This document shows positions 18,345-64,000 of a DNA stretch of 64,000 bases, piece after piece; positions within the stretch are counted from its first letter, which is position 1; each line of letters begins with the position of its first letter. Origin of the DNA: Catellatospora vulcania (GTDB taxonomy: Bacteria; Actinomycetota; Actinomycetes; Mycobacteriales; Micromonosporaceae); the NCBI RefSeq assembly GCF_009720385.1, contig NZ_WARX01000001.1:1364001-1428000 (forward strand), given 5' to 3'. The notes below the pieces were generated by a model. That model was not told where the DNA came from. It ran no database searches and saw only the letters and a list, made by a program, of their open reading frames with translations. Position numbers and translations under genes: made by a program.

Positions 18345-18348
18345 GTGA

Positions 18349-19611: not shown

Positions 19612-19711
19612 CCGCATTCTCCGTTCCATGGCGTGGCCTGGCCCTGACGGCCCGGTTACACGCGAAGACCTTCGGATAGGATGGGGATCCTGCCGGATGT
19701 CGCCGCTGAGC

Positions 19712-20722: not shown

Positions 20723-20811
20723 CGATGATGCTCAATAGTGGCTAGTCGCGGTCTCGCCTCCCGGCCGATGCTCGGACGTCGGCGCTCCTCCGGAGGCGAA
20801 AGGATCGAAAG

Positions 20812-22132: not shown

Positions 22133-22201
22133 TATCACGGCAATTCCGCGGTTAGTGTCAGTTGCGGTGATCGATATCTGTAAGCAGGAAGGCTCACACC
22201 G

Positions 22202-24334: not shown

Positions 24335-24336
24335 CC

Positions 24337-27675: not shown

Positions 27676-28632
27676 ATGCCACCAGAAAACGACGCGCCCG
27701 CCATCGCCGTGGCCGCGCAGCAGACGTCGCTGCCCGCGCACGACATCCTGCACTCCGGCAACTCCGGAGTGATCATGGAGCGGACGGGCCAGCTGCGCGC
27801 CGAGTTCCGCTCCGAGGGCCGCCAGTTCGCCCGCGAGCTGTCGGAGTACATCAACACCAAGTACAGCGGTGTCGCCAGCGTCTTCGTGTACGAGGAGACC
27901 TTCGGCGTCAAGGACCGCATCCACTGGCTGATGCACATCAAGTCGCTGGAGGCCTACGAGACGCTGGTGGCCATGGGCTCCCGCGACGAGGGCTGGCGGG
28001 AGATCATGTTCCGCGAGCGCATCGCGCCCGAGCGCGGCGGCGGCTCCTGGGACCGCATGTTCCTCGACGCCGGGCTGCAGGAGACCGTGCTCATCCCGCA
28101 GAGCTTCGGCATGTACGGCACCGCCGACACCCGCCCGGACACCGTGTCCCAGGCCGAGGGGGAGGTCGGCCGCTTCGAGGTGCCGACCGCCCAGCACCAG
28201 ACCTCGCAGTCACCGGACCGGTCGTTCAACTCCGCCAACTGCGGCATCATCATGCACCGCACCGGCGAGCTGAAGTACGAGTTCCGCGCCGAGGGCCGCC
28301 AGTTCGCCCGCGCGCTGACCGACGCCTGGAACGACAGCCTCGGCGACGTGGCGACGATCTTCCTCTACGAGGAGGCGTTCGGCCTGTCCGACCGGATCCA
28401 CTGGTTCATCCACCTCAAGCAGCTCAGCTCGTACTACAACCTGATGGGCCTGCGCGCGCGGGTCGACCCCAAGGCCCGCGAGGCGTTCACCAAGCAGTGG
28501 ATCGCCGACGACAAGGGCGGCGGCGGCTGGGAGCGCATGTTCGTGCAGGGCAGCCTCCAGGACATGGCCCTCACCCCGCAGCACTGGGGCATGTACGCCA
28601 CCAAGTCGGCCGGCGGCCAGGACCGCGCCTGA
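27676..28632 (+). CDS. Tandem-domain protein of unknown function, copy B (possibly DUF6039)
   Basis: A 318-residue paralogue of the protein at 22202-23101. Two halves (about 17-145 and 175-308) repeat the same motif chain: LHSGNSGVIMERTGQLRAEF in half 1 and FNSANCGIIMHRTGELKYEF in half 2, then FVYEETFG / FLYEEAFG, RIHWLMHIK / RIHWFIHLK, RGGGSWDRMF / GGGGWERMF and QSFGMYG / QHWGMYA. The halves here are more alike than in copy A, so this copy is closer to the ancestral duplication. GGAGAG precedes ATG 27676. It is the first gene downstream of an operator-like site, as copy A is. Function unknown. Confidence 0.75.
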   Translation: MPPENDAPAIAVAAQQTSLPAHDILHSGNSGVIMERTGQLRAEFRSEGRQFARELSEYINTKYSGVASVFVYEETFGVKDRIHWLMHIKSLEAYETLVAMGSRDEGWREIMFRERIAPERGGGSWDRMFLDAGLQETVLIPQSFGMYGTADTRPDTVSQAEGEVGRFEVPTAQHQTSQSPDRSFNSANCGIIMHRTGELKYEFRAEGRQFARALTDAWNDSLGDVATIFLYEEAFGLSDRIHWFIHLKQLSSYYNLMGLRARVDPKAREAFTKQWIADDKGGGGWERMFVQGSLQDMALTPQHWGMYATKSAGGQDRA

Positions 28633-28703: not shown

Positions 28704-30485
28704 ATGTTCTCGGGCAAGACCCTGCATGAACTGTTCGCGGCACAGGCGGCGCGCACCGGCGACCGCGTCGCGGTGACCGACGGCGTCCGCAGCCTCACCT
28801 ACCGCCAGCTCGACGAGCGGGCCAACGGCGTCGCCGTGCGCCTGGTCGAGCTCGGCACCGCACTCGACGACATGGTCGGGCTGTGCGCCGAACGCGGCAT
28901 CGACATGATCGTGGGGATGCTCGGCATCCTCAAGGCCGGCGCGGCATACGTGCCCGTCGACCCCGGCTATCCCGCCGACCGCGTCGCGTTCCTGCTCCGC
29001 GACAGCGGCGTCACCACGGTCGTGGCGACCACGGCCGTGGCCGACCGGCTGACCGCGCCGGACACCCGGGTGCTGCTCGTCGACCGCGACACGACCCCGG
29101 TGCCGGCGGTGCCGCCGGTCGCGGCGAGCGAGGACAACCTGGCCTACGTCATCTACACCTCCGGCTCCACCGGCACCCCCAAGGGCGTGCTGATCGAGCA
29201 CCGCAACGCGGTGAAGCTGTTCGAGCAGACCACCGACCTCGTCGGGTTCCGCGACGACGACGTGTGGACGCTGTTCCACTCCCTCAGCTTCGACTTCTCC
29301 GTCTGGGAGGTGTGGGGCGCGCTGCTGTTCGGCGGCCGGCTCGTCGTCGTCGACACCGACACCGCCCGCTCGCCCGCGCTGCTGCGCAAACTGCTGGTCG
29401 ACCAGCGGGTCACCGTGCTCAACCAGACGCCGTCGGCGTTCCGCCGGCTCGTGGCCGAGGAGCTGACCCACCCCGAGGGACGGCTGGCGCTGCGGCTGGT
29501 GATCTTCGGCGGCGAGCGCCTGGACGTCAAGGCGCTGGAGCCGTGGTTCGCCCGCTACCCCGACAACCCTGTGCTGATCAACATGTACGGCATCACCGAG
29601 ACCACCGTGCACGTCACGCACCGGCGCATCACCGGTGCCGACCTGGACGAGCCGGGAGCCAGCCCGATCGGCGACGCCCTGCCGGAGTACGGCATCCACC
29701 TGCTCGACTCCGCCGGGCAGCCGGTGGCCGACGGCGGCGTGGGCGAGATGTACGTCGGCGGCACCGGCGTCGCCCGCGGCTACCACCAGCGCCCCGAGCT
29801 GACCGCGGAGCGCTTCACGACCCTGGGCGACGCCCGCGTCTACCGCTCCGGCGACCTGGCCCGGCGCACCGCCGACGGCGGATACGTCTACCTCGGCCGC
29901 GCCGACGACCAGATCAAGATCCGGGGATTCCGGGTCGAGCCGTTCGAGATCGAGGCGCTGCTGGTCGACGACCCCCGCGTGGCCTCGGCCATCGTGGCGC
30001 CGGAGGACTTCGGCGACGGCGACGTGCGGCTGCTGGCCCACCTGGTCGCCGCACCCGGCCGCGAGATCCCCGACGGTGAGCTGGCCACGCTGGTGGCGGA
30101 CCTGTCCGCGCGGTGCGCGGCGACCCTGCCCGAACACATGCGCCCGTCGCGCTACCGGCTCATCGCCGAGGTGCCGCTCACCCCGCAGGGCAAGGTCGAC
30201 CGCGAGGCGCTGCGCGGCCTGGCCTACCGCGAGGCCCCGGCCGACTCGCCGCAGGCCGCCGGCCTCACCGCCACCCAGGCACTGGTCACCGAGATCGTCA
30301 CCGAGGTGCTCGCCCGCGGCGGCATCGGCCTCGACGACGACCTGTTCGACTGCGGCGCCACCTCGCTGGCGTTCATGCGCATCATCGCCTCCGTCAACCA
30401 GCGCTGCCACACGTCGCTGACCGGCGCCGAACTCGACGAAGCGACGGTCGCCTGCCTGGCGGCCTGCATCGACGAGCAGGCGTGA
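28704..30485 (+). CDS. Free-standing NRPS adenylation-carrier protein, threonine-specific (SyrB1-like)
   Basis: A 593-residue A-PCP didomain. Core motifs: AYVIYTSGSTGTPKGVLIEH (A3), FDFSVWEVWG (A4), NMYGITETTVHVT (A5), YRSGDLARRTADGGYVYLGR (A7-A8) and the A10 lysine in PQGKVDREAL. Reading the specificity pocket gives D-F-W-N-I-G-M-V-H-K, the standard threonine code. Residues about 520-593 are the carrier, with the phosphopantetheine Ser in DCGATSLAF. It lacks a condensation domain, so the Thr stays on this carrier for tailoring. The next two genes are a SyrB2-type halogenase and a SyrC-type shuttle, in the same order of function as in syringomycin. ATG 28704 has GGGAGA upstream. Confidence 0.93.
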   Translation: MFSGKTLHELFAAQAARTGDRVAVTDGVRSLTYRQLDERANGVAVRLVELGTALDDMVGLCAERGIDMIVGMLGILKAGAAYVPVDPGYPADRVAFLLRDSGVTTVVATTAVADRLTAPDTRVLLVDRDTTPVPAVPPVAASEDNLAYVIYTSGSTGTPKGVLIEHRNAVKLFEQTTDLVGFRDDDVWTLFHSLSFDFSVWEVWGALLFGGRLVVVDTDTARSPALLRKLLVDQRVTVLNQTPSAFRRLVAEELTHPEGRLALRLVIFGGERLDVKALEPWFARYPDNPVLINMYGITETTVHVTHRRITGADLDEPGASPIGDALPEYGIHLLDSAGQPVADGGVGEMYVGGTGVARGYHQRPELTAERFTTLGDARVYRSGDLARRTADGGYVYLGRADDQIKIRGFRVEPFEIEALLVDDPRVASAIVAPEDFGDGDVRLLAHLVAAPGREIPDGELATLVADLSARCAATLPEHMRPSRYRLIAEVPLTPQGKVDREALRGLAYREAPADSPQAAGLTATQALVTEIVTEVLARGGIGLDDDLFDCGATSLAFMRIIASVNQRCHTSLTGAELDEATVACLAACIDEQA

Positions 30486-30512
30486 CCCCCACATCCAAGG
30501 AGAGGAACGGCA

Positions 30513-31463
30513 ATGTCTGACGCCCCGGCCCGCGAATCGTTCAGCCTGAGTCCCGAAGAGCTCGACAGCTTCCGCCGCAACGGCTACTTCGGCCCGTTCA
30601 AGGTCTACGAGATCGAGGAGATGAAGGCGATCTGGCGCAAGGAGCGCCTGCGCCTGCTCGACCGCAGCAACGCCGTCTACCAGGACGAGGCCGCCCAGTC
30701 GGGCAACACCAACATCTCCAACTACGACCGGCACCTGGACAACACGTTCCTGGCCGACCACATCATGCGCCCGCAGATCGTCGACCGCGTCCGCGGCGCC
30801 CTCGGCCCCGACGTGCTGTGCTGGCGCACCGAGTTCTTCCCCAAGTACCCCGGTGACGAGGGTACCGACTGGCACCAGGCCGACACGTTCGCCAACGCCT
30901 CCGGCAAGCCGCAGATCCTCTGGCCCGACGAGTTCAAGGAGTTCGGCGGCACCATCACCGTGTGGGCCGCGCTGACCGAGGCCAACGAGGACAACGGCTG
31001 CCTGCAGTTCATCCCCGGCACGCACGAGCAGATGAACTACGACGAGACCAAGAAGATGGAGTACGAGCCCGACGCCATCAACCAGATGGACAAGGAGGGC
31101 ATCCGCCGCGGCTTCTTCGGCTACGACTACCGGGAGCTGCAGAAGGACCCGAACTGGAAGCCCGACGAGTCCAAGGCCGTCTCGATGGTGATGCGACCCG
31201 GCGAGGCCATCATGTTCTGGTCCACGCTGATGCACGCCTCCTGGCCGCACAGCGGCAAGACCGACGAGATGCGGCTCGGGTTCGCCGCCCGCTACGTGCC
31301 CACCTGCGTGCAGATCTACCCCGACACCGACATCATCGAGGAGTACGGCGGCGCGGTGTCCCTGGACAACTACGGCGCGGTGCTCGTCGCGGGCGACAAC
31401 GACTACGACCACAACCGGATGGTCACCGAGACCAACACCGGCCACCCGTTCACGGTCCGCTGA
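30513..31463 (+). CDS. Fe(II)/2-oxoglutarate halogenase acting on carrier-bound Thr (SyrB2-like)
   Basis: A 316-residue PhyH-superfamily protein of SyrB2 length. The metal site is His121-Gln-Ala123 in [19 protein letters not shown], where hydroxylases have His-x-Asp/Glu. Ala at this position leaves room for chloride and is the hallmark of aliphatic halogenases. The distal His is in [12 protein letters not shown] (about 241), and Arg254 in DEMRLGF is a candidate 2-oxoglutarate/chloride contact. Given the Thr-loading partner just upstream, the predicted product is 4-chloro-threonyl-S-carrier. AAGGAGAGG precedes the ATG. The regiochemistry (C4) is inferred from SyrB2. Confidence 0.92.
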
Positions 31464-31476
31464 GGCGACGGATCCG

Positions 31477-32658
31477 ATGACCATCGATGAGGCACGGCCG
31501 GCCGTGGCGGCCCTGGCGGACGCGGTGCGCGCGCTGGCGCCGCTGGTCGGAGCCCTGCAACGTCCCGTGCGGGTGCCGGTCCCGGCCGGCGCCCGCACCG
31601 CCGGCCACCTCGGGCCGGGCGAGCTGCTGACCCACATCGCCCGGAACCTGGGCGTCGCACTCGTCGCCGACCCCGAGGCCGGCGCCGACCAGACGGACGC
31701 CTTCGAGGTGGTCATCCACCGCTGGCTGGAACCGCTGCTGGGCGCAGCCGCCCTGGACGTCCCGGCCGAACTCGCCGGTGACGTCGACAAGATCGTGGCG
31801 GATACCGTGGCCGGCAGCTTCGACCGGTACCGCTCGCCGGTCGACGTGGTGGCCGACGACGGCGCCCTGCTGCCGGTCTACACCGCCGGCGACCCGTCGG
31901 CCCCCGCGATCGTGCTGGCCTCGGCCTGCGGCATGCCGGCCGAACTGTGTGAGCCCTGGCTCACCCGGCTCGGCCGGGACCACTTCGTGGTCACCTGGGA
32001 GAGCCGGGGACTGTTCCGGCCCCAGGAGAAGTTCGACGACCTGGCGTACGACGCCGGTGCGCAGGCCGAGGACGTCTTCGCGGTGATGGACCACTTCGGC
32101 CTGCGTACCGCCCACCTGATGGGCTTCTGCGGCGGCAGCGTCGTCGGCCTGGCCGCGGCCGGGCGACGGCCCGAGCGGATCTCGTCGCTGAGCCTGTGGC
32201 ACGGCGCCTACGAGCTCGGACCCGACTCCCCGAAACTGGACCACCACCGCAACATCCAGGCCCTCATGGCGATGGCTGCGGAGAGCCGGCAGGCCGCCGC
32301 CGCGGTCCACTCCGTCTTCCTGCAGACCATGCTCGGCAGCGCACCGCTGGACATGGCGCACCTGGTGCTTTACCCGTTCGCCACCCCCGAGCTGTTCTAC
32401 CGCTACTGCCGGGTCAACGGCGCCATCACCGACATCGACGTCAGCCCGCTGCTGGACCACGTGCCCCAACCCACCCTCGTGGTCACCAGCGACGACGACA
32501 ACACGGCGAATCCGCTGGGCTCCAAGCACGTCGCGGCGCGGCTGCCGGACGCGGTCCTGCAGGTCGAGCCGCACGGCAATCACCTGTCGCTGTTCAAGAT
32601 GGGCGGCCGCCTGGACGAGGTCGCCACCGGCTTCCTACGCCGGCACGCCCAGCGCTGA
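31477..32658 (+). CDS. Alpha/beta-hydrolase aminoacyltransferase, carrier-to-carrier shuttle (SyrC/CmaE-like)
   Basis: A 393-residue protein. The N-terminal 120 residues are helical; residues 125-393 are an alpha/beta-hydrolase fold. The nucleophile elbow is LMGFCGGSVVGLA with Cys218 in place of the usual Ser. An acid candidate is in VVTSDDDN and the His is in EPHGNHLS. A Cys elbow is known from SyrC and CmaE, which move chlorinated amino acids from the tailoring carrier to the assembly-line carrier as a thioester. Here the donor would be the A-PCP at 28704 and the acceptor the N-terminal carrier of the first giant protein, 25 bp downstream. A thioesterase-like hydrolase is the main alternative. 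Confidence 0.85.
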   Translation: MTIDEARPAVAALADAVRALAPLVGALQRPVRVPVPAGARTAGHLGPGELLTHIARNLGVALVADPEAGADQTDAFEVVIHRWLEPLLGAAALDVPAELAGDVDKIVADTVAGSFDRYRSPVDVVADDGALLPVYTAGDPSAPAIVLASACGMPAELCEPWLTRLGRDHFVVTWESRGLFRPQEKFDDLAYDAGAQAEDVFAVMDHFGLRTAHLMGFCGGSVVGLAAAGRRPERISSLSLWHGAYELGPDSPKLDHHRNIQALMAMAAESRQAAAAVHSVFLQTMLGSAPLDMAHLVLYPFATPELFYRYCRVNGAITDIDVSPLLDHVPQPTLVVTSDDDNTANPLGSKHVAARLPDAVLQVEPHGNHLSLFKMGGRLDEVATGFLRRHAQR

Positions 32659-32682
32659 AACGACGCACGAACGGAGAAGTCG

Positions 32683-45536
<12,854 letters not shown>

Positions 45537-45540
<4 letters not shown>

Positions 45541-48090: not shown

Positions 48091-51000
48091 CCGAGCAGTT
48101 CGACGTGCGCAGTGAACCCGATCCCGACACCGCTGCGCAGGCGGCGTCTCACCCGGCAGCCGTGCCGGCCGCGGCCGCCGCCCGCGTCACCGCCGGGCTG
48201 GATCCGCGCGAACCCGCCGACGCCATCGCGGTCATCGGCATGGCCGGACAGTATCCGCAGGCCCCGGACCTGGTCGCGTTCTGGGAGAACCTGAAGGAAG
48301 GCCGTGACTGCATCACCGAGGTCCCCGCCGACCGCTGGGACCACGACGCGATCTTCGACCCCGGGCAGGACCAGGCGGGCAAGACCTACAGCCGCTGGGG
48401 CGGCTTCCTCGACGGCGTGGACCGGTTCGACCCGACGTACTTCGGCATCTCCCGCCGCGACGCCGAACGCATGGACCCGCAGGAGCGGCTGTACCTGCGG
48501 ACCTGCTGGCAGACGCTGGAGTCGGCCGGCTACCCCTCCGCGCAGCTGGCGCAGACCGCCGTCGGGGTGTTCGTCGGCGTCATGTGGAACCACTACCAGC
48601 TGGTCGACAGCGCCGCCGACGGCGTGCTGCCCACCGCGATGCACGCCGCCATCGCCAACCGGGTCTCCTACACGCTGAACCTGACCGGGCCCAGCATGGC
48701 CGTCGACACGGCCTGCTCCTCGTCGCTGACGGCCGTGCACCTGGCGGTGGAGAGCCTGCGCCGCGGCGAGTGCGACATGGCGCTGGCGGGCGGTGTGAAC
48801 GTCAGCGTGCACCCGCAGAAGTACCTGCAGCTCGCGCAGGGCCGCTTCCTGTCCGAGGACGGACGCTGCCGCAGCTTCGGCAAGGGCGGCAGCGGCTACG
48901 TGCCGGGCGAAGGGGTCGGCGCGGTGCTGCTCAAGCCACTGTCGCGGGCGCGCGCCGACGGCGACCACATCTACGGGATCATCAGAGCGACCTGCGTCAA
49001 CCACACCGGCCGCACCAGCGGGTTCACCGTGCCCAGCCCGGTGTCCCAGGCGGCGCTCGTACGCGGCGCGCTCGACCTGGCCGGCATCAATCCCAGCAGC
49101 ATCGGCTACATCGAGGCGCACGGCACCGGAACCGCGCTCGGCGACCCCATCGAGATCGACGGCCTGCGCAAGGCCTTCGAACTCAACGGGCAGGCCCTGC
49201 CCGGATCGTGTGCGATCGGGTCGGTGAAGTCCAACATCGGCCACCTGGAGAGCGCCGCCGGTGTCGCGGGCCTGACCAAGACACTGCTGCAGCTGCACCA
49301 CGCGCAGCTGGTGCCGTCGCTGCATGCCGCTGAGCTGAACCCGAACATCGACCTCGCCGGAACCCCGTTCGCCATCCAGCACGAACTGCGGGCCTGGCCG
49401 GAGCCTGCCGACGGCCGCACCCGCCTGGCCGGGATCAGCGCCTTCGGCGCGGGCGGCGCCAACGCCCACGTCGTCGTCGAGGAGTTCCGCAACCCCGCGC
49501 CCGTGCCGCAGACGGGCCCGGCCGTGGTCGTCCTGTCGGCCCGCGACGACGACACGCTGCGCCGCTACGCCTCGCAGTTGCTGGCCGCGGTGGACGGCGC
49601 CGGGCCGAGCGCCGAGGCCGAGGTACGCCACCAGATCGTCAGCGCGACCGCCGACGTGCTCGGCGTGCCCGCGGACGCCGTCGACCCGGCCGAGACACTC
49701 GCCGACCTGGGCGTGGACCTGGCCGGGCTGGCCGCCATCTGGCAGACCGTGCGGGCGAACCAGCCCACCGCCGGCGTCACCCCGCCGCTGGGCGTCTCGA
49801 TCGCCGAACTCGCCCGGCAGGTGGCCTCGGCCGACGCCGGCCCGTCACCGGTCGACCTGGCCTACACCCTGCAGGTCGGGCGTACCCAGCTGAACACGCG
49901 CATGGCGCTGGTGGTCACCGACCTGCCGCAGCTGTGCCAAGGGCTGACCGCCTTCCTGGGCGGCGAAGCACCCGCGCCGGGGCGGCACTGGCGGGCCGCC
50001 GCCCCGGCGACGGCGACACCGCAGGACTGCCTGCGGCTGTGGCAGCAGGGCAGGCTCGACGAACTCGCCGCCGCGTGGGCGGCCGGGGCCGACGTGCCCT
50101 GGGCGCAGTGCTACCCGGCCGGGCACGGCCGGCGGCGGCTGCCGCTGCCCACGCCGCCGATGCGCGAGGAGCGCTACTGGCTCGGCGCCTGGCGGGCCGG
50201 TGCCGACATCGCCGCCCCGGCCCGGCTCGTGGCCGCCACCCCGGCCCCCGCCGACACCGCCGCCCCGGCCCGGCTCGCGGCTGCCACCCCGGCCCCGGCC
50301 GAGCCCGCCGCCCCGGCCATCGCGCGCGCCGTCGAGCCGTACCACGGCACCGAGGTCGAACTCAGCCTGCTGCAGCACGGCATCGCCCTGGTCACGCTGC
50401 GGGACAGCATGTTCAGCGCGGGCCTGATGCACGGGCTGGAGGCGACCTTCGCCGAGATCGAGACCCGCGCCGACATCCGGGCCGTCGTGCTGACCGGCAC
50501 CGAGACCGTGTTCAGCCTCGGCGCGACGCCGCAGGCGCTGGAGCAGCTGGCCGCCCGGGAGACCCGGTTCACCGACACGCCCTTCGTCTACGAGGGCCTG
50601 CTGCGCTGCACCCGGCCGGTGATCGCGGCCCTGCGCGGGCGCGCCTCAGGCGGCGGCCTGGCCTTCGGGCTGTACGCCGACCTGGTGGTGCTGTCCGCCG
50701 ACGGCAGCTACGGCGCGAACTTCATGACCTACGGCTTCACCCCCGGCATGGGCGCCACCCACATCCTCGAGAACCGGTTCGGCCGCTCGCTGGCCACCGA
50801 GATGTTCCTGACCGGCCGCAGCTACGCGGGCGACGAGCTCGCCCGGCGCGGCGCGACCGTGCCCGTCGTGCCCGCCGACCAGGTGCTGGCCACGGCGCTG
50901 GACCTCGCCAAGTCCATCGCCGACAAGCCCGCCGCCGCGGTCGCCGTACTGAAACAGGAGCTGGCCGGCAGGCTGCTCGCGCAGCTGCCCGACATCGTGC

Positions 51001-54000
51001 GGCGCGAGGCGCGGATGCACGAGCAGGTGCTCGGCGACGAGTCCATGCAGCGGGTGCAGGAGCACTTCCGCAAGGTACGCGACTTCGACTCCCCGCAGCC
51101 GCAGCCGCAGCCGCAGCCGCAGCCGCACCCGCAGCCGCAGCCGCAGCCGGTGGTGGTGCCCGCCGCCGACCGGGCACCACGGCCCGCAGCCGTCGCCGTG
51201 ACGGCGGCCCCTCCCGTGCCTGCGCAGCGTCCCGCGCTGGCCGACGAGGACCTGCGGCGCACCATCGTCGCTTCCCTGTGCGCGATCCTCTACGCCGAGC
51301 CGGGCGAGATCGACGCCAAGCTGAGCTTCAACGAGATGGGCGTGGACTCCATCGGCGCGGTCGAGATCGTCCGCGACCTGAACCGCCGCTTCGGCCTCGA
51401 CATCGACTCGGTGGCCGTCTACGACCACCCGACGATCCCGCGCCTGGCCGAGCACGCGCAGGACATCCACGCCCAGGCCGGCTTGCTGCACGCGTCGGCA
51501 CTCGCCCACGCCGACGCCACCGCCCCCATGCCACCGGTCGACACTGTCGCCGCTGCGCCGCCGACCGCCGCCGAGCCGATGCCACCCGTCAGCGCTGCGC
51601 CGCCGGTCGTCGCCGAGCCGATGCCGGTCGGCGCCACGGCGCGCCCGGCCGTTGCCGAACCGGCTCCGCCCGTCGCCGTCGCGCTGCGGGCCGTCGCCGG
51701 GCCGGCCCAGCCGGAACGTGCCGCGCTTCCGACGCCGGCCGCCGCACCGCCTGGGATGGTGGCGCTGCGGCCGCTGGGCACGCCCGCGGCCCGGCCGGTG
51801 CACGCCGTCGCACCCGTGGCCGTCACCGCGCCCGCCGACGTGCGCGCCGACCGTGCACCCTCCGCCGTGACCGACGAGCCGATCGCCGTGATCGGCATGG
51901 CCGGGCGGTTCCCCGACGCCGACGACCTCGACCAGTACTGGGCGAACATCGCCGAGGGCCGGTGCAGTGTCACCGAGGTGCCCGACGCCCGCTGGGAGCG
52001 GTCGAGCTACTTCGACCCCGACCGCCGCGCCGAGGACCGGTCGTACAGCAAATGGGCCGCGCTGCTGTCGGACGTGGACCTGTTCGACCCCCGGTTCTTC
52101 CACATGTCACCGGTCGAAGCCGAGGCCATGGACCCGCAGCAGCGGCAGTTCCTGCAGCAGGCCTGGGCCGCGCTGGAGGACGCGGGCTACGCCGTGACCG
52201 GCGCCGCGCCGCGCACCGGCGTCTACGTCGGAGCCAGCGCCGGGGACTACTCGTACCTGCTGCGCGAGGCGGGCCTGGGCGACACCGGCCAGGCGTTCCT
52301 CGGCAACAACGTCGCCATCCTCGCCGCGCGCATCGCGTACCTGCTCGACCTGCGTGGACCCACCATGACCGTCGACACCGCGTGCTCGTCGTCGCTGGTC
52401 GCCGTCCACCTGGCCTGCCAGGCGATCCGCTCCGGCGAGTGCGACCTGGCCCTGGCGGGCGGGGTGGCGCTGATGAACACCCCGCAGATGCAGGTGTGGA
52501 CGAGCCGGGTGGGGATGCTCTCGCCGACCGGCCGGTCCGCGCCGTTCAGCGACAGCGCCGACGGCATCGTGCTCGGCGAGGGCGTCGGGGTCGTCGTGCT
52601 CAAGAGCCTGCGCCGCGCGCTGGCCGACGGCGACCACGTACACGCCGTGATCAGGGCCAGCGGCGTCAACGGCGACGGCCGCACCAACGGCATCACCGCG
52701 CCGAGCGCGGCGTCGCAGGCCCGGCTGCTGCACGAGGTGCACCAGCGGGCGGGTATCGCCGCAGACGACCTCGGCTACCTCGAAGCACACGGCACGGGCA
52801 CCCACCTCGGCGACCCGATCGAGGTCAAGGCCCTCAACGAGGTGCTCGGCACGGCGAGCCGGCGGGCGTTCTGCGGCCTGGGGTCGGCGAAGGCGAACAT
52901 CGGCCACACCACCACCGCCGCCGGGATCGCCGGACTGATCAAGACGGTGCTGGCGCTGCGCCACCGCCAGCTGCCCCCGCTGCCCGGCTTCGACGCCGCC
53001 AACCCGAAACTCGACCTGGCCGACAGCCCGCTGTTCGTCGTACGCGAACTGCAGCCGTGGGCGGCCGGACCGGGCGGGGCCCGGGTCGGGGCGGTCAGCA
53101 GCTTCGGCTTCAGCGGCACCAACTGCCACGTCGTGCTCGCCGAAGCACCGGAGCGCGCACCGGTCGAGCAGGCCGGGCCGGACCTGTTCCTGCTGCCGGT
53201 CTCGGCCCGCACCGAGCAGGAACTGCCCGCCGTCGCCGCCGCGCTCGCCGCCGCCGTCGCCGCCGGCGAGCACCGCCTGCGCGACATCGCCTACACCCTC
53301 AGCATCGGCCGGACCCACCTGTCGGCCCGCGCCGCGCTGCTCGCCGCCGACCGCGACGAGCTGGTCACCCAGCTGCGTGCGCTGGCCGCCGGGCAAGCCG
53401 CGAACCTCGTCCCGACGGCGACTCCGGAGCTGGCGGCGCTGGCCCAGGCATACCTGCGCGGCGACTCCCCGGACTGGACCCCGCACGTCGCGGGCGGTCG
53501 CCGCATCCCGCTGCCGCCCTACCCGTTCGCCCGCGAGCACCACCGGGTGCAGGCACCGGGCTCGGCGCAGCCCCGGCGCATCGGCCCCGATCACGTGCTG
53601 GCCGCCGACCACGTCATGGGCGGCACCCCGCTGCTGCCCGGCATGGCGAGCGTGGCGCTGGCGATCGACGCCGCCGCCGCACGCGGGATCGCCGGTCCGC
53701 TGCGGCTGACCGGCGTGCGCTGGCTGCGGCCGTGCGAGCTGACCCGCCCCCGCGCGCTCGTGCTGGGCGGAAAGCCCGGCCCGGACGGCGTCTGGCCGTT
53801 CGACCTGACCATCCAGGGCGAGACCGAACCGCTGGTACGCGGCTCGCTGCGCCAGGCCGCCGACGCCCCCGCCGAGACCGTCGACCTCGGGAAGCTCACC
53901 GCACGCTGCCCGGCCCGCCGCGACGGCCGACAGCTGTACGACTCCCTTACCGCCGCCGGGCTGTCCTACGGGCCCGCGCTGCGGCGCATCCAGCACGTGC

Positions 54001-57000
54001 TGGTCGGCGACGGCGAGGCGCTCGGCGTCCTGGACGCGCCCGCCCCGGCCGACCCCTGGGTCCGTGACACGGCACAGCTGGACGCGGCCCTGCAGGTCAT
54101 CGCCGCGCTGACCGCGCAGGAGCGCGCCGAGACCCTGGTGCCGTTCGCGGTCGCCGCCGTCACCGTGCAACGCGCCCCGGCGCAGGCCCGCTACGCCCAC
54201 GTGCGCCGTGACGCCGAGGGCACGTACACGGTCACCGCCTGCGACGCCGACGGGCGGGTGTGCGTACGGCTCGACGGCGTGGCACTGCGCCCGCTGCCCG
54301 CGCCGCGCGACCCGGCGAGCCTGCTGTACGTGCCGCAGTGGCGTCAGCTCCCGACCGTGACCGCCGACGGCGCACGGGGCCGCGCCGTGATCTGGCACCC
54401 GCCGGGCGGGCAGGCGCTCGCCGACGCGTTGGCGGCCGCACACGGCCCGGACGCGGTCGCGGTCGCCTACCACGGGTCCGACGCCGACCTGGGCCCCGAC
54501 GGCGACGTGCCGGACATCGCCTACTTCCTGTGCGAGACCGGCCCGGTCGGCCCGCCGGAGGACGACCAGAGCGCGGCGGCGCTGCTCAGCCTGGTGCGGC
54601 GGCTGCTCGCCCGGGACGGGGCGCACCGCTCGGTCACCCTCAAGGCCGTGATCGCCGGCGCCGTCACGGTCGCCGAGGGGGAGGCGGCACAGCCGCACGC
54701 GGCAGGGGTGCTCGGCCTGTGCGCCAGCATCGCCGCCGAGCTGCCACGCTGGTCCGTCGGCTGCGTCGACGTCGGGTCGCAGCCGTGGAGTGCGTCCGAA
54801 CTCGCCGCCGCGCTGTACGCCGAGCCGGCCGACACCCGCCTGGTCGCGCTGCGCGACGGCCACCGCTGGACACGCGGCCTGAGCCCGCTGCCCGCGGACG
54901 GCCCGCCGACCTCGAACGGCCCGCTGCCCGCGGACGGCCCGTCGGCCTCGAACGGCCTGGCATCCCTGAACGGCCTGGCACCTCTGGATGGACCGGCACC
55001 CGGGGACGGGTCGCTGTGGCGGCGGGGCGGCTGCTACGTCATCCTCGGCGGCACCGGCGGGCTGGGCATGGCCGTGGGCCGCCACCTGGCCCGCACCGCC
55101 GCCGCCCGCCTCGCGCTCATCGGCCGCCGGCCGCTGGACGCCGAGGTGCAGCAGCGACTCGACGAGCTGCACGCCCTGGGCGGCGAGGCGATCTACCTAC
55201 AGGCCGATGCCGTGGACCTCGAGCAGCTGCGCCGAGCCGTCGAGGCGGCCCGCGCCAGGTTTGGACCCGTCAACGGCGCTGTGCATGCGGCGGGTGTGCT
55301 GCGGGACAGGACGCTGGCCAACCTGGGCGCCGACACGTTCGGCGCGGTGTACGGGCCCAAGGCCGCCGGGACGGCCGCGTTCGCGCAGGCCCTGCGCGAC
55401 GAACCGCTCGACTTCCTGGCGCTGTTCTCCTCGGCGGTGTCGTTCACGGACGCGGCCGGTCAGGCCAACTACGCGGCGGCCAGCACCTTCCAGGACGCCT
55501 ACGCCCACCACCTGCGTGCGCGGGGCGTGCCGGCGGTGGCCGTCAACTGGGGCTACTGGGGCAGCGTCGGCCTGGCCGCCCAGGACCACCACAAGCAGCG
55601 GATGGGACAGTTCGGTGTCGACTCGCTCGAACCGGCCGAGGCCATGGCGGCCTTCGAACAGGTGCTCGCCCGGCGGCTCGGGCAGGCAGTCGTGATCAAG
55701 GCAGACCGGTCCGGCCTGGCACGCCTGGGCGTCTTCGACCGTCCCGGTGACAGTCAACCCGCACCGGCCGCGCAGCCGGTACCGGTCGCGCAGCCGCGAG
55801 CGGCGGCCGGCGGGCACACCGGCGAGGTCGGCGACGCGGCGGCACGCGCGTACGTACGGCGGATCTTCGCCGAGGTGCTCAGGTTCTCCGCATCCGAACT
55901 GGACGACGAGTCGACGTTCGACGTCTACGGCGTCGACTCGCTGCTCAGCCAGAACATCGTGTACCGGCTGGAGCAGGATCTGGGCGAGCTGCCGGCGACG
56001 CTGCTGTTCGAGCAACTCACCATCGCGCAGCTGGCCGGGCACCTGGCCCGTACCCGGTCGGCGCGGTTGGCCGCGGTGCTGGGACCCGTCGCGCCGCAGG
56101 AGGCGACGCCCGTCGCGGCGGCCGGGCCGGTCCGGGTCGTGGAGAAACCACGGGAGACGACCGGCGGCGACATCGCCGTCATCGGCGTGAGCGGCCGCTA
56201 CCCGGGCGCGGCGGACATCGACGAGTTCTGGGCCAACCTGTCCGGGGGCGTCGCCAGCATCCGGGAGGTCCCGCCGGACCGGTGGGACTGGCGTCCCCAC
56301 TACGACCCGCAGAAGGGCACGCCGCAGCGCAGCTGCAGCAAGTGGGCGGGCTTCATGGACGGCGTCGACCAGTTCGACGCGCCGTTCTTCCAGATCCTGC
56401 CCCGCGACGCCGCCGACATCGACCCGCAGGAGCGGCTGTTCCTGGAGAACTGCTGGAACCTGCTCGACCGGGCCGGATATCTCGGCGACACCACCCATGA
56501 GCCGATGACCGGCGTGTTCGCCGGGGTCATGTACGGCTCGTACGGTCGGATGGCCGCCGCGGGCTGGGCCAGGGGCAAGCTCGCCGGGGCGCACTCGGCC
56601 TACTGGTCGGTGGCCAACCGCGTGTCGTACCACTTCGACCTGCGCGGCCCGAGCTTCGCCGTCGACTCGGCGTGCTCGTCGTCGCTCACCGCCATCCACC
56701 TGGCCTGCGAGAGCCTGCGCCGCGGCGAGTGCCGGATGGCCATCGCGGGCGGCGTCAACCTGGTGCTGCACCCGTCGCACCACGTCGCCCTGTCCGGCCT
56801 GAACATGCTGTCGGCCGACGGCGCCTGCAAGGTGTTCGACGAACGCGCCGACGGGTTCGTCCCCGGCGAAGGCGTCGGGGCTGTGCTGCTCAAGCCGCTG
56901 GCCGACGCCGAGCGCGACGGCGACGACATCATCGCCGTGATCAAGGGCAGCCTCGTCAACGCCGGCGGCAAGACCGGCGGGTACACCGTGCCCAACCCCA

Positions 57001-60000
57001 ACGCCCAGGCCGAGCTCATCGCCGAGGCCGTACGCCGGTCCGGGGTGGAGCCCCGGTCCGTCGGCTACATCGAGGCGCACGGCACCGGCACCAGCCTCGG
57101 CGACCCGATCGAGGTGTCCAGCCTGATCCGGGCCTTCGACGACCTCGGGGACGCGCCCGAACGGTGCGCCGTGTCGTCGGTCAAGGCCAACATCGGGCAC
57201 CTGGAGGGCGCGGCCGGCATCGCCGGGTTCACCCGGGCGCTGCTGCACCTGCACCACGCGACGGTCACCCCCTGCGTGAACCTGCAGACGCTCAACCCGC
57301 GGATCGACTTCGGCGACTCGCCGTTCTACCCGCCGCGCGAACTCGCGGCCTGGCCGCAGCCGACCGATCGCACGGGACGGCCGCTGCCGCGCCGCGCCGG
57401 AGTCAGCTCGTTCGGCGCGGGCGGCGCCAACGCCCACGTGATGCTGGAGGAATACATGCGGCCAGACGACGCCGACACCGACCGCGCGGGCGAAGAACAG
57501 CTGTTCCTGCTCTCCGCCCGCACCCCCGAGCAGCTCAGGCAGTCCGCCGCCGACGTCGCTGACCTGCTCGACCGGCCCACCGCCGATGTGGACCTGCGCC
57601 GGCTGGCATACACCAGCCAGGTCGGGCGCAAGGACATGGCCGAACGGGTCGCGGTGCTCGCCACCGACGTCGGCGAGCTGCGCGACCGCCTGCGCGCCTA
57701 CGCCCGGGGCGAGGACGTCGCGCAGGTCGTCGGCGGAACCGTGGGCCGCGACGAGGCCAGCCGGTCCCTGCTGTCCGGCGACGACGGCGTCGACTTCGTC
57801 GGCTCGCTGCTGGCCCGCCGGCAGCTGGCCAAGCTGGCCAGGATCTGGGTCGCCGGGGTGAAGGTCGACTGGAGCGGCTGGTGGCCGCAGCCCCGCCCGC
57901 GCCGGGTGGCGCTGCCGGCGTACCCGTTCGACCGCCGCCGCTACTGGCTCGACGACGACGCGACCACGGCACCGGCCTTCACCTCGGCACCGGCACCGGC
58001 ACTGGCATCGGCACCGCAGCAGGCGAACGCACCGGCCGAGCAGCAGGTGCGGGTGGCTCTCGGCACGGGCCCGCACCTGAGCGACCACCGCGTCGGCGGC
58101 GCCCGCTGGCTGCCCGGCGTCGCCGCCCTGGACCTGGTGGGCGCCGCCTACCAAGGCGCAGGCGGCCCGATCACGCTGCAGGACGTGTCATGGCCCGCCC
58201 CGATGATCCTCGACGGCACCGCCGTGGCGGCGACCGTGACGCTCACCCACGCCGGGCCGGGCACGTCGTTCGAGGTCCAGGCGGACGACGCGCAGCACAC
58301 CGTGGTGGCCCGGGGACGGGTGGCGTCCGCGACCGCGGCCCCAGCCGAACGGGCCGACCTGGCCGCGGCGCGGCGGCGGTGCGCCATAGCCGCCGACGTC
58401 GAGGCCTTCTACACCGGCTTCGCCCGCGGCGGTCTGGACTACGGGCCGGGCATGCGCGTGGTACGCGAGCTGTGGCGCGGCGACGGCGAGGCGCTGGCGC
58501 GGCTGGCCCCGGTCGCGCCCGCCGCCGGAGCCCTGTTCGACCCGGCACTGGCCGACGGAGCCCTGCAGGTCATCGCGGCCGTCGTCGCGGGGGAGGGGAC
58601 TTACCTGCCTGTCGGATGCGAGAAGATCACCGCGTACGAGCCGGCAGCCGGACCGTGCTGGGCCCTGGTACGCGAGGCGGCAGGCCACGCTCCCGACGGC
58701 AGCCGGTTCTTCGACGTGCTACTCGTCGGCGACGACGGGCAGATCCTGGTCCGGTCGGCGGCGGTACGGGTCGCCCCGGCGCTGCGGGCCGCCCGCCGCG
58801 ACACCGGCGCGCCGACCTCCTGCCGCTACCTGCGTCCCGGATGGGAACGAGCGCCCCTGGCCAAGGGCGGCGCGCTGCCGCGCACGGTAGCCGTCTACGG
58901 CGACGACCCCGCCCTGATCACCGCGCTGACCAAGCGGCTGACCGAACACGACGTACGGGTCCTGCCCGCACCGGCGAGTAGCCGCGAGGACCACCGGCGG
59001 CTGGTGGAGCAGTGGCAGGCGCAGGGGATCGTGCCCGACGCGATCGTCCACCTGCCCGCGACCGCCCCGCTGGACGCCGCCGGCCTGGACCGGGCCCTGG
59101 ACACCGGTTTCTACCCGTTCCTGTGGTCGGCCACCGCGCTGCTGTCACGCGGCCCGGCCACACCGCTGCGGGCGGTGTTCGCCTGCGCCGAGCACGGCGG
59201 GCATGCCCAGCCACAGCACGCGGCGATGAGCGGGCTCATGAAGACCCTCGCCCTGGAGCACAGCGGCTTGCGCGGCACCGTGCTGCGGGTCGCGGCACCC
59301 AGCCCGGACGACCTGGCCGCCGCCGTCGCCGTCGAGCTGTCCGACACCGGGTCCGCGATCACCGAGATCGCCTACCGCGACGGCGACCGCCTGCTCCGCA
59401 CACTGGAACAGTTCACGCCGCGTACCACCGGCGAACCCGGCGAGCTGCCGATGCGGCCGGGTGGCACCTACCTCGTCACCGGCGGCACCGGGGCGCTCGG
59501 CCTGCACGTCGCCGAGTTCCTCGCCCGCAACGCCGGGCCCCTCGACCTCGTACTGGTCAGCCGGAGCGGGCCCGGCGAGCAGGCCCGCACCCGCATGGAC
59601 CGGCTGACCGGCGACGGCGTCCAGGTGCACTGGGCGCAGGCCGACATCACCGACCCGGCACAGGTGCGGCAGCTCGTCGCCCGGACCACCGAACGCCACG
59701 GCCCGATCCACGGCATCGTCCACGCGGCCGGGGTGCTGCGCGACGGCCTGGCCGCGCGCAAGGACCGCGCCGACATCGAGCAGGTGCTCGCGCCGAAACT
59801 CACCGGAGCCCTGCTGCTCGACGAGGCCGTCGGCGAGTCCCCGCTGGACTTCTTCGTGCTGTTCTCGTCGATCGTCGGCGAGACGGGCAACATCGGCCAG
59901 GCCGACTACGCGTACGCCAACGCGTTCCTCAACCAGCTCGCCGTCGACCGGCAACAGCGGGTCGCCCAGGGCCTCCGGCACGGCCGGACGGTGTCGATCG

Positions 60001-63000
60001 GCTGGCCGCTGTGGCAGGACGGCGGCATGGCGGTCGACGAGGGAACCCGGCGCATGTTCGCCCAGCGCTGGAACATGGTGCCCATGCGCACCGAGCTGGC
60101 GCTGCGCGTGTTCTGCCAGGCGGTCGCCAGTGCCGAGCCGGTGCTGCTGGCCGTCGAGGGCGCAGGCGAGCAGGCGGCCCCGCCGCCCGTACCGGCACCC
60201 GTACCGGCGGTGACGGTGAGCGGCGAGCCGCAGACCCGGGCCGCCGTCGAAGCTGAACTGCGGCGCATCGCCGCGGGTTTCCTGCTGGTCGAGCCGGCCG
60301 AAGTGGACCTGCGGGCGGAGCTGTTCGAGCAGGGGTTCGACTCCATCTCGCTGACGCAGCTCGTCAACGCCGTCAACGACAGCTACGGACTGGCCCTGCT
60401 GCCGACCGTGCTGTTCGAGTGCCCGAACCTGGAGGCGTTCGCCCGCTACCTGTGCGAGCACCACGCACCGGAGGTCACCCCGGCGGTTGCGGCCGCCGCG
60501 CCCGTCGCGGCGGTTGCCGAGGTGACGCCGATCGCCGTGCCGGTTGCGGAGGTGACGCCGATCGCCGTGCCGGTTGCCGAGGTCGTGCCGGCCGCGGTGA
60601 CCGAGCCCGCCGCCGCACCGGCCGTCCGGGTCCGTGACCACGGCACCACGCCCATCGCCGTGATCGGGATGGCCGGGCTGCTGCCGGGCTCGGCCGACCT
60701 CGACGAGTTCTGGCAGCACCTGATGGCCGGTGACCACCTCGTCCGGCCGGTGCCCGCCGATCGCCACGATCTGCTGTCCGACACCAGGACCCGGGACGTC
60801 AGTGGCGGCTTCGTCGACGGCGTGGCGGACTTCGACGCCGCGTTCTTCGGCATCTCCGCCGCCGAGGCCGCCCTGATGGACCCGCAGCAGCGGCTGTTCC
60901 TGGAGGTCACCTGGCGGGCCGTGGAGGACGCCGGATACCGCCCCAGCGCGCTGGCGGGCAGCCGCACCGGCCTGTTCGCGGGCGTGTCCACCTCGGACTA
61001 CCTCGACCTGCTGCACCGCAACGGGGTCGACGTGCAGGCGCACACCGCGACCGGGCTGTCCCACTCGATCCTGGCCAACCGCGTGTCGCGCCTGCTGGAC
61101 CTGCGCGGGCCCAGCGAGGCGATGGACACCGCCTGTTCCAGCGCCCTGGTGGCGATCCACCGTGCCGCCCGCGCCATCCTCGACGGCGACTGCGACCTGG
61201 CCATCGCGGGCGGCGTCAACGTCACCCTCAGCCCGGGTCTGTTCGTCGCGTTCGTGAAGTCGGGCATGCTGGCCGCCGACGGGCGGTGCAAGACGTTCGA
61301 CAAGTCCGCCGACGGTTACGTACGCGGCGAGGGCGCCGGGGCGGTGCTGCTCAAGCGGCTCGACCACGCCGAACGTGACGGCGACGCCGTCTATGCGGTG
61401 CTGCGGGCCAGCGCGGTCAACCACGGCGGGCGCTCCACCTCGCTGACCGCCCCGAATCCCGAAGCCCAGTCGCAGGTGCTGATCCAGGCGTACGAGCGGG
61501 CCGGGGTCGACCCGAGCACCGTCACCTACATCGAGACGCACGGCACCGGCACGTCGCTGGGCGACCCGGTCGAGGTCGAGGGGCTCAAGCGCGCCTTCGA
61601 CCACCTGTACACCACCGCCGGGCTGGCCAGGCCGCAGCGGCCGCACATCGGGCTGGGCTCGGTGAAGACGAACGTCGGCCACCTGGAGTCCGCGGCGGGC
61701 ATCGCCGGGGTGCTCAAGGTGCTGCTGTGCCTCAAGCACGAGCAGTTGCCGCCCATGCTGCACTTCCAGGAGCTCAACCCGTACCTGCGGCTGGAGGGCA
61801 CGCCGTTCTTCATTCAAAACCAGGGCGGTGCGTGGACCGGAGCGACCGAGCACGGCGTCCGGGTACGCCGGGCCGGGGTGAGCTCGTTCGGATTCGGCGG
61901 CTCCAACGCGCACGTGGTGCTGGAGGACTACGCCGCCCCGCCGGTCGACGGGCCCGCGACGCCCGCGACGCCGTCGGTCGCGTCGCACCTGTTCGTGCTG
62001 TCCGCTCCCCGCCTGGACACGCTGCGCGGCTACGCGGCGAACCTGGCCGGGTTCGTGAAGGACAACCCGGACGCCGACCTGAGCCGCATCGCGTACACCC
62101 TGCAGACCGGTCGTGAGGCCTACCGTGAGCGGCTGGCCGTGCTCGCCCCCGACGCGCAGCGGCTGGTCGAGGCGCTGTCGGCGGCGGCGCGTGACCTGCC
62201 CGGCGGCGACACGCTCTTCCTGCAGGCTACCGCCGACGAGGCGGCCCCACCGGCCGAACCCGACGCCGACGCCGCCGACCTCGCCGAGGCGTGGGTCAAC
62301 GGCGCGCTGGTGGAATGGGAGCTGCTCTGGGCAGACCAGCGTCCGCGGCTCATGTCGCTGCCCGGCGTCCCGTTCACCAAGGTGCGCCACTGGTTCAAGG
62401 TGCCCGCGGCCCAGGCCGCCGTCGCTCAGGCTCCTGCTGCTCAGGCTTCCGTTGCTCAGGCGGCGACTGCTCAGGCCGCTGTCGCTCCGGCCCCTGTCGC
62501 TGCGGCGACCGTCGCCAAGGAGGCTGCGGTCCAGCCGTCCGCGGCCGTGACCGGGCCGTCCGCGGCTGCGGCACTCCCGTCACCGGGATCTGCGGCAGCC
62601 GGGGGCACGCAGGTCACCGACCGTCGCCGCCCGGCAGGCGAGAAGATCCGGCTGGCCGCGGCCCCGGCGCGCGGCCGAGGCGGTCTCACCCTGGCAGCGC
62701 GGCCAGGCAGCGCCGCGTCGCCGCCCCGCGAAGCCGGCGGCGAAACCACGCCGACAGCACCCGAGCAGCCGCAGACCACCGCGCCCGCTACGGCACCGGC
62801 GAGCCATCGGGAGCCCGACGCCGACGCTCGCGGCGGTGCGGCCGGCGCGGCCGAGGTCGACGGCCTGATCCGGGACAGCCTGGCCGAGGTGCTCGATCTC
62901 CCCGCCGAATCGATCACGCCGACCAGCTCCTTCACCGGCATCGGCCTGGACTCGATCTTCCGCATGGAACTGGTACGCCGCATCAACACCGCCTACGGGC

Positions 63001-64000
63001 TGGAGCTGAAGGCCTCGGAGCTGTACGACTTCGACACCGTCGCCGAGCTCACCAGGGAGGTGCTGGCCGCGATCGCCGCCTCGCCGCAGGCCGCACCTGC
63101 CGTACCCGACCCGGCGCCCGCCGTGCCGGAGCCTGCACCGGCCGCCGAGGCGCTGCCCACACCTGCCCTCACCCCGCCGCCCGCACCCGCCGTGCGTCCT
63201 GCCCCGGCCGCACCCGCGGCGGCCCCCGTCGCCGGGCCCACGACCGGGGGCGATCACGCCGCGGCGCAGGCGCACCTGGCCAGGCTGCTGTCCACGGTGG
63301 CCGGCCGGGCGCTGCCCGCCGACGCCGGTCTCGCCGACGGCGGGCTGACCTCGTTCGACATGCTGCGCAGCGTGAGCGTGCTGGAGAAGCGGTTCGGCGC
63401 GTTGCGCAAGACGCTGCTGTTCGACCACCCGACGATGCCGCAGCTGGCCGGTCACCTGATCGAGCAGTACGGGTCCGGCGCGGTGGCCCGCCTGGCCGAG
63501 GCCGCCGACCTGGCCGAGGCCGGCTCGGCGGGCAGCGCCGACGGCGTCGCGCTCACCCCGGCGGCCCCACCGCCCGCGGGCGGGTGCGCCATCGTGCGCA
63601 AACGCAGCCTGCCGGAGTATCCGGAGCTGGCCGAACTGGTCGCGACCCTGGACAGCCGCTGGGCCAAGGAAGGCGGCCTGGCCGGACGCGACATCGCCCC
63701 GCTGATATTCCTCGGGGCCGAACGGGAGGGCTACTTCAACTTCTCCCGGCGCGACGACGTCCTGTTCGCCTGGAGCTACGTCGGCTCGCGCGAATACCTG
63801 CCCGTCCTGGTCGAGCAGTACGTCGCCTACGCCGACCGGCACCGGCTGCGGCCCAACTTCCTGTCGATGGAACGTATCGAGCAGGTGGCGGGCGTCGACT
63901 ACACCGCCACGCCGTTCGGCGCGATCCAGCGGCTGGAGGACCTGGGCTCGTTCACCCTGTCCGGCAGCCGTATGCAGCGGCTGCGCTACATGGTGGGCAA
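45537..64000 (+). CDS. Trans-AT PKS assembly-line protein 2 (LnmJ-like), partial at window end
   Basis: One open frame runs from ATG 45537 to the window end; I checked that the ketosynthase blocks at 48.2, 51.9, 56.2 and 60.7 kb and the final domain are all in this frame. At least 6154 residues are present. Domain order: DH - ACP - KR - KS4 - ECH2 - ACP - KS5 - DH - KR - ACP - KS6 - DH - KR - ACP - KS7 - ACP - ACP - C-terminal domain (cut). There is no AT and no methyltransferase. KS4-KS7 all keep Cys-His-His, so with KS2 and KS3 there are six elongations. The start overlaps the previous stop (ATGA), with GGAG 11 nt upstream. No thioesterase is seen yet; it should lie beyond 64000. Confidence 0.92.
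50205..50300 (+). repeat. 48-bp in-frame tandem duplication in linker
   Basis: Two copies of a 48-bp unit coding for a 16-residue Ala/Pro-rich block (D-x-AAPARL-x-AATPAPA), followed by a partial third. It lies just before ECH2 and is a flexible spacer made by recent duplication. Confidence 0.85.
51093..51149 (+). repeat. CCGCAG hexamer repeat encoding (Pro-Gln)n linker
   Basis: CCGCAG is repeated about nine times with one CCGCAC variant, giving a Pro-Gln hinge between ECH2 and the ACP. This is the same style of hexamer expansion as the Pro-Thr linker at 43864. Confidence 0.9.
51873..56070 (+). other. Assembly line 2: KS5-DH-KR-ACP module
   Basis: KS5: Cys2283 (DTACSSSLVAVH), EAHGTGTHLGDP, KANIGHTTTAAG. 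DH: His2692 in DHVMGGTPLLPG and Asp2849/Gln2853 in DAALQVIAAL, a complete pair. KR: GGTGGLG, LFSSAVSF and QANYAAAS, with the B-type Asp in VLRDRT. ACP: Ser3468 (YGVDSLLSQN). Expected output: an enoyl unit. Confidence 0.87.
54885..54956 (+). repeat. 36-bp in-frame tandem duplication
   Basis: Two 36-bp units differing at two positions, each coding for PLPADGPxxSNG, inside the structural half of the KR in the KS5 module. Degenerate relatives (LASLNG, LAPLDG) follow. Confidence 0.85.
56163..60460 (+). other. Assembly line 2: KS6-DH-KR-ACP module
   Basis: KS6: Cys3713 (DSACSSSLTAIH), EAHGTGTSLGDP, KANIGHLEGAAG. DH: His4184 in DHRVGGARWLPG and Asp4340/Gln4344 in DGALQVIAAV. KR: GGTGALG, LFSSIVGETGNIG and DYAYANAF, with the B-type Asp in VLRDGL. 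ACP: Ser4936 (QGFDSISLTQ). Expected output: an enoyl unit conjugated with the previous one. Confidence 0.87.
60512..60590 (+). repeat. 30-bp in-frame tandem repeat in ACP-KS7 linker
   Basis: Two near-identical 30-bp units coding for VAEVTPIAVP and a diverging third (VAEVVPAAV). It is a linker expansion between the KS6-module ACP and KS7. Confidence 0.85.
60648..63470 (+). other. Assembly line 2: KS7-ACP-ACP module
   Basis: KS7: Cys5200 (DTACSSALVAIH), ETHGTGTSLGDP (Thr for Ala beside the His), KTNVGHLESAAG. There is no reductive domain. Two carriers follow: Ser5806 (GIGLDSIFRMEL) and Ser5939 (DGGLTSFDMLRS), separated by about 80 Pro/Ala-rich residues. Tandem carriers without a KR are typical of modules where HMG-synthase chemistry acts on the beta-keto, so a second branching site is possible. 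Confidence 0.85.
62407..62505 (+). repeat. Degenerate Ala/Gln-rich linker repeat
   Basis: A 15-bp-periodic degenerate repeat built on GCTCAGGC, coding for repeating VAQA / AAQA units between KS7 and the tandem carriers. Confidence 0.7.
63582..64000 (+). other. Assembly line 2: C-terminal domain of unknown function (cut by window)
   Basis: From about residue 6016 the sequence has no PKS-domain motif: FLGAEREGYFNFSRRDDVLF, AWSYVGSREYLPVLVEQYV, RPNFLSMERIEQ and YTATPFGAIQRLEDL. It resembles GNAT-fold DUF2156/lysylphosphatidylglycerol-synthase-like domains (tentative). In leinamycin-type synthases a DUF precedes the SH cysteine-lyase and thioesterase domains; whether this is that DUF needs the sequence beyond 64000. 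Confidence 0.5.

Follow-up and report, generated by a model that had tools for sequence, protein, structure and literature searches.

The stretch of 64,000 nucleotides analysed here (the window; C1:1364001-1428000 of an 8.83 Mb genome) very probably carries most of a largimycin-type gene cluster with a trans-AT NRPS-PKS line, belonging to the leinamycin family. The host is probably not a Streptomyces, as its genus counts 11 genomes, its own included, in the collection used. Leinamycin itself is a DNA-alkylating compound with antitumour activity, and its family has few known members. The first-pass annotation of the window knew of no described member with a chlorothreonine starter, but this novelty falls because priming by 4-chloro-threonine has already been shown experimentally in the largimycin pathway, the largimycins of Streptomyces argillaceus being leinamycin-family compounds with that starter (PMC9396626, 2022). 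The window cluster is a new relative of this known chlorinated branch. Domains, motifs, gene order and relatives were obtained here, and the chemistry of individual steps follows what has been published on largimycins and leinamycin. The largimycin cluster lrg (MIBiG BGC0001853) was compared through its published descriptions and gene order; among the matches listed in sequence searches, which exclude records near the window's own genome, none came from S. argillaceus.

The assignment to the leinamycin family, already proposed in the first-pass annotation, holds because of the end of the last PKS protein, the LnmK gene and the KS clades. The LrgJ/LnmJ-like PKS gene begins at position 45537 on the forward strand and is cut by the window end at 64000; the whole protein has 7132 aa and ends at 66935. 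Examination of the sequence past 64000 revealed SH and TE domains at this end, which reads ACP-ACP-DUF(PF09924)-SH(PF01212)-TE, the last module thus carrying the DUF-SH didomain followed by TE. The LnmK gene lies at 66959-67912 (TIGR04098, 278 bits for a cut-off of 100) and is adjoined by the ACP and HMG synthase of the C3 branch. A tree of 79 KS domains was built from the window, a Kitasatospora plasmid cluster (KIT), three plasmid clusters free of the halogenase (N1361, N1445 and XAN) and eight further genomes, and compares DUF-SH clusters with one another, these standing in for LnmI/LnmJ. In this tree 7 of the 7 window KSs grouped with their positional counterparts of other DUF-SH clusters, one of them weakly, in clades of 9 to 12 tips each. 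Clade supports were 1.0, 0.78 and 0.99 for the KSs of the NRPS-PKS protein, and 0.22, 1.0, 1.0 and 0.94 for those of the PKS protein. The clades of the first and fourth PKS KSs comprised halogenase-bearing clusters only, and that of the second NRPS-PKS KS lacked G014 and G076. Within this comparison the family call withstood both refutations named in the first-pass annotation, KS clades matching a different trans-AT family and a downstream end devoid of SH/TE domains.

The leinamycin (lnm) and guangnanmycin (gnm) clusters share with the window the trans-AT line, the LnmK/L/M branch and the DUF-SH-TE end; the lnm cluster is loaded with Ala and is not known to have a halogenase. The weishanmycin cluster (wsm), known here by description, resembles the window in its two HMG synthases, its C9 exomethylene and its tandem ACPs in module 8, but has one donor ACP where the window has two, and words in halogen- or chlor- are absent from the available part of its text (PMC7618002).

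Judged by the genes common to relatives, the cluster extends in window coordinates from about 10.9 kb to about 76-78 kb, the right end being 76 kb, or possibly 78 kb if one TetR and one MFS gene are counted. It had been annotated as spanning 28704..64000: the loader, halogenase, shuttle, NRPS and PKS named there were all found, in the order given, but the cluster is larger than this interval. The AT-ER fusion, HMG synthase, ECH and Crp genes, also named, were all recovered upstream by profile matches. A Cas3-like helicase gene with an HD domain was noticed downstream of the cluster, at window coordinate 83068-85227.

At the left end, an ABC transporter operon (11550..16397, forward strand) comprises a binding protein, two permeases and an ATPase (SBP_bac_5 and ABC_tran matches, the permeases being named from homology and context). 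It likely serves transport for the pathway. Of the 12 other DUF-SH clusters whose surroundings could be read, 9 have a homologous operon at 33-70% identity (KIT, G126, G155, G076, G082, N1361, N1445, XAN and G440), and none was found in the other three (G119, G014 and G052). A cytochrome P450 gene (18349..19617, reverse strand, PF00067) then occupies the lrgC2 position of the published lrg order. It is followed on the forward strand by a Crp-type regulator (20057..20722; cNMP_binding and HTH_Crp_2) at the lrgR2 position, one of two Crp-type genes left of the loader, and by a cation:proton antiporter (20812..22128; PF00999, with TIGR00932 under its cut-off) at the lrgT2 position. Next come, still on the forward strand, a DUF6039 gene (22202..23101; PF19505) standing at the lrgE place, an LrgM2-like HMG synthase for the C9 beta-branch (23105..24334; HMG_CoA_synt, 63% to its Kitasatospora counterpart), an LrgF-like ECH1 dehydratase (24325..25107; ECH_1), the LnmG/LrgG-like trans-acting AT-ER protein (25161..27521) and a second DUF6039 gene (27676..28632; PF19505). 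The AT-ER protein scored 258.7 bits with fabD, just under the cut-off of 260.9, and above the cut-off with the PfaD family. On the right, the LnmK gene is followed by ACP, HMG synthase, ACP, KS and TEII genes (to 71708) and then, in order, by genes for a DUF3224 protein, acyl ligase, DUF427 protein, VOC protein and FAD oxidoreductase (74706-75926). Five published lrg junctions could be compared, and all are matched in this arrangement, C2-R2-T2, T2-E-M2, M2-F-G, J-K and M1-A-D-N (PMC9396626, and the methods of PMC13200230).

The starter cassette opens with an LrgS-like A-PCP loader (28704..30485, forward strand; AMP-binding and PP-binding), whose A code reads DFWNIGMVH over nine positions (the tenth, Lys517, lies outside the reading), which we take to be the standard Thr code. 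It is followed on the same strand by an LrgH/SyrB2-like iron/alpha-ketoglutarate chlorinating enzyme (30513..31463), with 467 bits to TIGR01762 for a cut-off of 226, 493 bits in the SyrB2 alignment and the HxA iron motif retained, and by an LrgY-like, SyrC-like aminoacyl shuttle of alpha/beta hydrolase fold (31477..32658; PF00561), a homologue of which occurs in all 10 halogenase-bearing DUF-SH clusters, that of the window included. Code, profile and motif thus support the earlier reading of this cassette as a Thr-coded A-PCP with halogenase and SyrC-like shuttle. In syringomycin biosynthesis, SyrB1, SyrB2 and SyrC load Thr, chlorinate it at position 4 on the carrier and transfer it through an alpha/beta hydrolase. 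The logic of loading, chlorination and shuttling is the same in the window, the likeness to SyrB2 coming from the alignment, but here the loader primes a leinamycin-type line, whereas the chlorinated Thr of syringomycin supplies another residue of the peptide. For largimycins, LrgS, LrgH and LrgY are described as activating Thr, chlorinating it and handing it over to LrgI; deletion of lrgH leaves a plain Thr side chain, with loss of both the chlorine and the C18/C19 epoxide, and mutants stalled at other steps accumulate C19-chlorinated compounds (PMC9396626). The same authors proposed that the chlorohydrin is converted to the epoxide at C18/C19, and dehalogenation has been proposed to precede release (PMC13200230). 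Our results, together with this proposal, support the suggestion that the predicted chlorohydrin of the window is a possible epoxide precursor.

The LrgI/LnmI-like hybrid NRPS-PKS (32683..45540, forward strand) is organised as Cy-Cy-A-PCP-Ox-KS0-ACP-KS-KR-ACP-KS. Its two condensation stretches have D-x4-D in place of HHxxxD, and its Ox domain is of the nitroreductase type. The first KS (38245..39333, forward strand) keeps the active-site Cys and lacks HGTGT, and is therefore assigned as KS0; in the other six the Cys is accompanied by the two His motifs. Motif reading of all seven KSs thus bears out the annotated count of one KS0 and six KS modules. Four of these KSs, together with an ECH domain, belong to the PKS protein. 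In neither protein did the domain scan report an AT domain, in agreement with AT-less modules served by the AT-ER protein. The two frames, of 4285 and 7132 aa, are uninterrupted and packed with domain matches, which puts them far beyond chance. The in-line ECH2 domain of the PKS (50373..51080, forward strand; PF00378) belongs to the C9 branch, and was found in 10/10 halogenase-bearing and 0/3 halogenase-free DUF-SH clusters, these three relatives thereby differing from the window. With the second HMG synthase, ECH1, a donor ACP and a KS, it makes the C9-branch set complete.

The window and lrg are thus alike in their Thr loader, SyrB2-like halogenase, shuttle and NRPS-PKS pair, and both have two sets of HMG synthase along with ECH1, in-line ECH2 and an ACP of their own. 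To the decarboxylating KS of lrg corresponds a KS gene of the window, whose decarboxylating role is putative. By analogy, the published largimycin and leinamycin chemistry would also run in the window strain, for which any tailoring is likewise a prediction. The A-PCP would load L-threonine onto its own carrier, the iron halogenase would chlorinate the threonine methyl group, and the SyrC-like enzyme would carry the 4-chloro-threonine to the NRPS, where Cy-Cy-A-PCP-Ox would add a second residue and make the azole. KS0 would then hand the chain on to the six AT-less modules, which would lengthen it by malonyl units supplied by the AT-ER protein. An exomethylene at C9 would be installed by the second HMG synthase set and the in-line ECH, and a propionyl-derived branch at C3 by LnmK with ACP and first HMG synthase; the DUF-SH didomain would place sulfur on C3, and TE would close the ring. 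The chlorohydrin may finally give an epoxide or a diol, as in largimycins.

The nature of the azole is less easily predicted. The A2 domain (35521..36981, forward strand) has the pocket DLFNCALVW, while DLFNFSLVW or DLFNYSLVW is found in the 11 other DUF-SH clusters compared (KIT, N1361, N1445, XAN, G126, G155, G076, G082, G119, G014 and, read by eye, G440), which amount to nine independent ones at most since N1361 equals N1445 in the A2 domain and G126 and G155 are 97% alike. The Ser at position 301, common to the relatives, is lost in the window. For comparison, PchE has the Cys code DLFNLSLIWK (PMC11253843), and largimycins carry an oxazole, as from a Ser-type second residue, though the LrgI code resembles a Cys code (PMC13200230). 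As the A2 pocket departs from those of the 11 relatives, the thiazole foreseen by the first-pass annotation is not assured.

Ring closure is the second point on which the product could deviate. Largimycins close through an oxime ester, and the window cluster has a candidate oxime enzyme, so the macrolactam initially annotated is not established. This candidate, the FAD oxidoreductase at 74706-75926, truly belongs to such clusters: in G126, G155 and G076 it immediately follows the genes for halogenase, ACP and KS, all on one strand, and in G014 it is located near the start of the cluster, with identities across these four relatives of 61-68%. It is regarded here as the best, still unproven, LrgO candidate. 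Counting the window, it occurs in 5 of the 10 halogenase-bearing DUF-SH clusters. Its best curated families are of geranylgeranyl-reductase and aromatic hydroxylase types, all below cut-off, and the closest matches among solved structures are two flavin halogenases (about 55 bits).

We therefore weighed what the cluster might yield. It has nearly an even chance of making a true largimycin, the FAD enzyme being LrgO and closure proceeding through the oxime ester: LrgO has been described as an FAD-dependent oxidoreductase (PMC9396626), the FAD gene is the sole FAD oxidoreductase among the scanned cluster genes, and its counterparts adjoin the halogenase, ACP and KS genes in G126, G155 and G076 and lie near the cluster start in G014. 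The sub-threshold family matches and flavin-halogenase structures argue in the other direction, as do its presence in just half of the halogenase-bearing clusters and the P450 complement: lrg has three P450s, C1, C2 and C3, all essential (PMC13200230), whereas the motif scan of 130 kb around the window cluster gave no P450 signature beyond the gene at 18349..19617, leaving two of the three missing. These missing P450s, together with the changed A2 pocket, point to a different end product, which could quite possibly, though at somewhat less than an even chance, be an 18-membered macrolactam whose arm bears a chlorohydrin, diol or epoxide and which would fall outside the largimycin group. The FAD gene would in that case not be LrgO, and closure would proceed via the amine, as for largimycin O1 in the lrgO mutant (PMC13200230); the constant presence of the FAD gene in several such clusters speaks against this. 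A decayed or silent cluster giving no product is very unlikely: silence under standard conditions has been described for lrg (PMC13200230), but both long frames are free of internal stops and the KS motifs are intact except for the usual KS0.

According to PMC13200230, the lnm-type clusters described to date all contain one P450 or more. With a simple pattern, and in stretches that may be incomplete, we detected no P450 signature in G082, G119 and G014 (80 kb each) or in G052 (60 + 20 kb).

LrgB, a VOC protein, has been suggested as the missing dehalogenase (PMC9396626). A VOC gene was found in 6 of the 7 Thr-coded halogenase-bearing DUF-SH clusters (the window, G126, G155, G076, KIT and G440, not G014), and no match with E below 1 was obtained in G082, G119, N1361, N1445 and XAN; in G052 one lies about 33 kb from the LnmK gene. 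The link to dehalogenation is nevertheless weak, because a clear VOC gene also occurs in 4 of 7 LnmK regions without DUF-SH (G069, G046, G180 and G182), the six VOC proteins fall into two unlike groups, and G126, G155 and G076 are close relatives. Among the questions raised by largimycins are the enzyme turning the chlorohydrin into the epoxide and the role of LrgC3 (PMC9396626, PMC13200230). Since the window cluster and its relatives naturally lack some of the genes concerned, a comparison of their products would shorten the list of candidates with no need to construct mutants; the ten halogenase-bearing DUF-SH clusters offer a starting list, and the tailoring differences of the window cluster deserve chemical study.

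The distribution of such clusters was surveyed by a search with the LnmK profile PF18238 followed by tblastn on the fetched regions, a procedure that can miss clusters lacking LnmK or split between contigs. PF18238 was detected in 15 of 200 genomes of the window's family, that of the window included. Among the 14 others, 7 have a halogenase and the same 7 a DUF-SH in the fetched regions, while neither was found there in the remaining 7; DUF-SH clusters found through LnmK in this family sample thus bear a halogenase in 8/8 cases. The G052 cluster is split between two contigs, and its halogenase adjoins the PKS start. A class-wide sample of 394 genomes had LnmK in 3, the window included, and both others bear a halogenase; one of the clusters, G440, is complete, halogenase-bearing and laid out much as the window. 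Left out of the counts were G446, with DUF-SH and halogenase on separate contigs, and SID, whose stretch ends before the PKS.

A Thr-coded loader was not found in three halogenase-bearing DUF-SH clusters, G082, G119 and G052. Their halogenase is flanked by a small free-standing gene, which encodes a PCP in G082. The opposite strand carries an A protein with the code DIWQSTADD plus a gene set that in G082, the one cluster scanned with Pfam, comprises A-PCP-TE, ATP-grasp ligase, lyase, PALP and GHMP-type proteins. No paper containing DIWQSTADD or the window code DLFNCALVW was found in the literature searched. We tentatively propose, giving the whole slightly less than even credence, that a chlorinated amino-acid start is the norm for leinamycin-type lines in the window's bacterial family and that diversification took place around it, the window keeping chloro-threonine with a changed A2 domain and a single P450, and the three relatives having swapped the Thr loader for another A domain while retaining the halogenase. 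If so, the window product would have a new azole and tailoring pattern beside a chlorine-derived warhead.

Among the matches listed, at least four plasmid records contain DUF-SH over most of the query. These four leinamycin-type clusters are carried by large linear plasmids found in Streptomyces and Kitasatospora, which makes plasmid transfer of the family plausible. Among the matches listed, the halogenase was present in Kitasatospora sp. NBC_00039; it was not found in the other three clusters (73-85 kb fetched for each). A Streptomyces mirabilis plasmid (NZ_CP108478.1) bears a cassette of Thr A-PCP, halogenase (71%) and SyrC-like genes near other A domains, at 18000-22200 of the 41 kb fetched, in which no leinamycin-type PKS was seen. 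On the Kitasatospora plasmid (NZ_CP108290.1) lies a DUF-SH cluster that is complete, bears a halogenase (76%) and shares its core order with the window, but it is without the extra ACP and KS genes, and has two P450s, a different VOC group and the A2 pocket DLFNFSLVW. Near it, at NZ_CP108290.1:541589-542728, stands a gene annotated as a winged helix DNA-binding domain protein, a name often given to AlkZ-type DNA glycosylases. This gene could provide self-protection; two such genes have been reported in C-1027/leinamycin-like clusters (PMC9040887).
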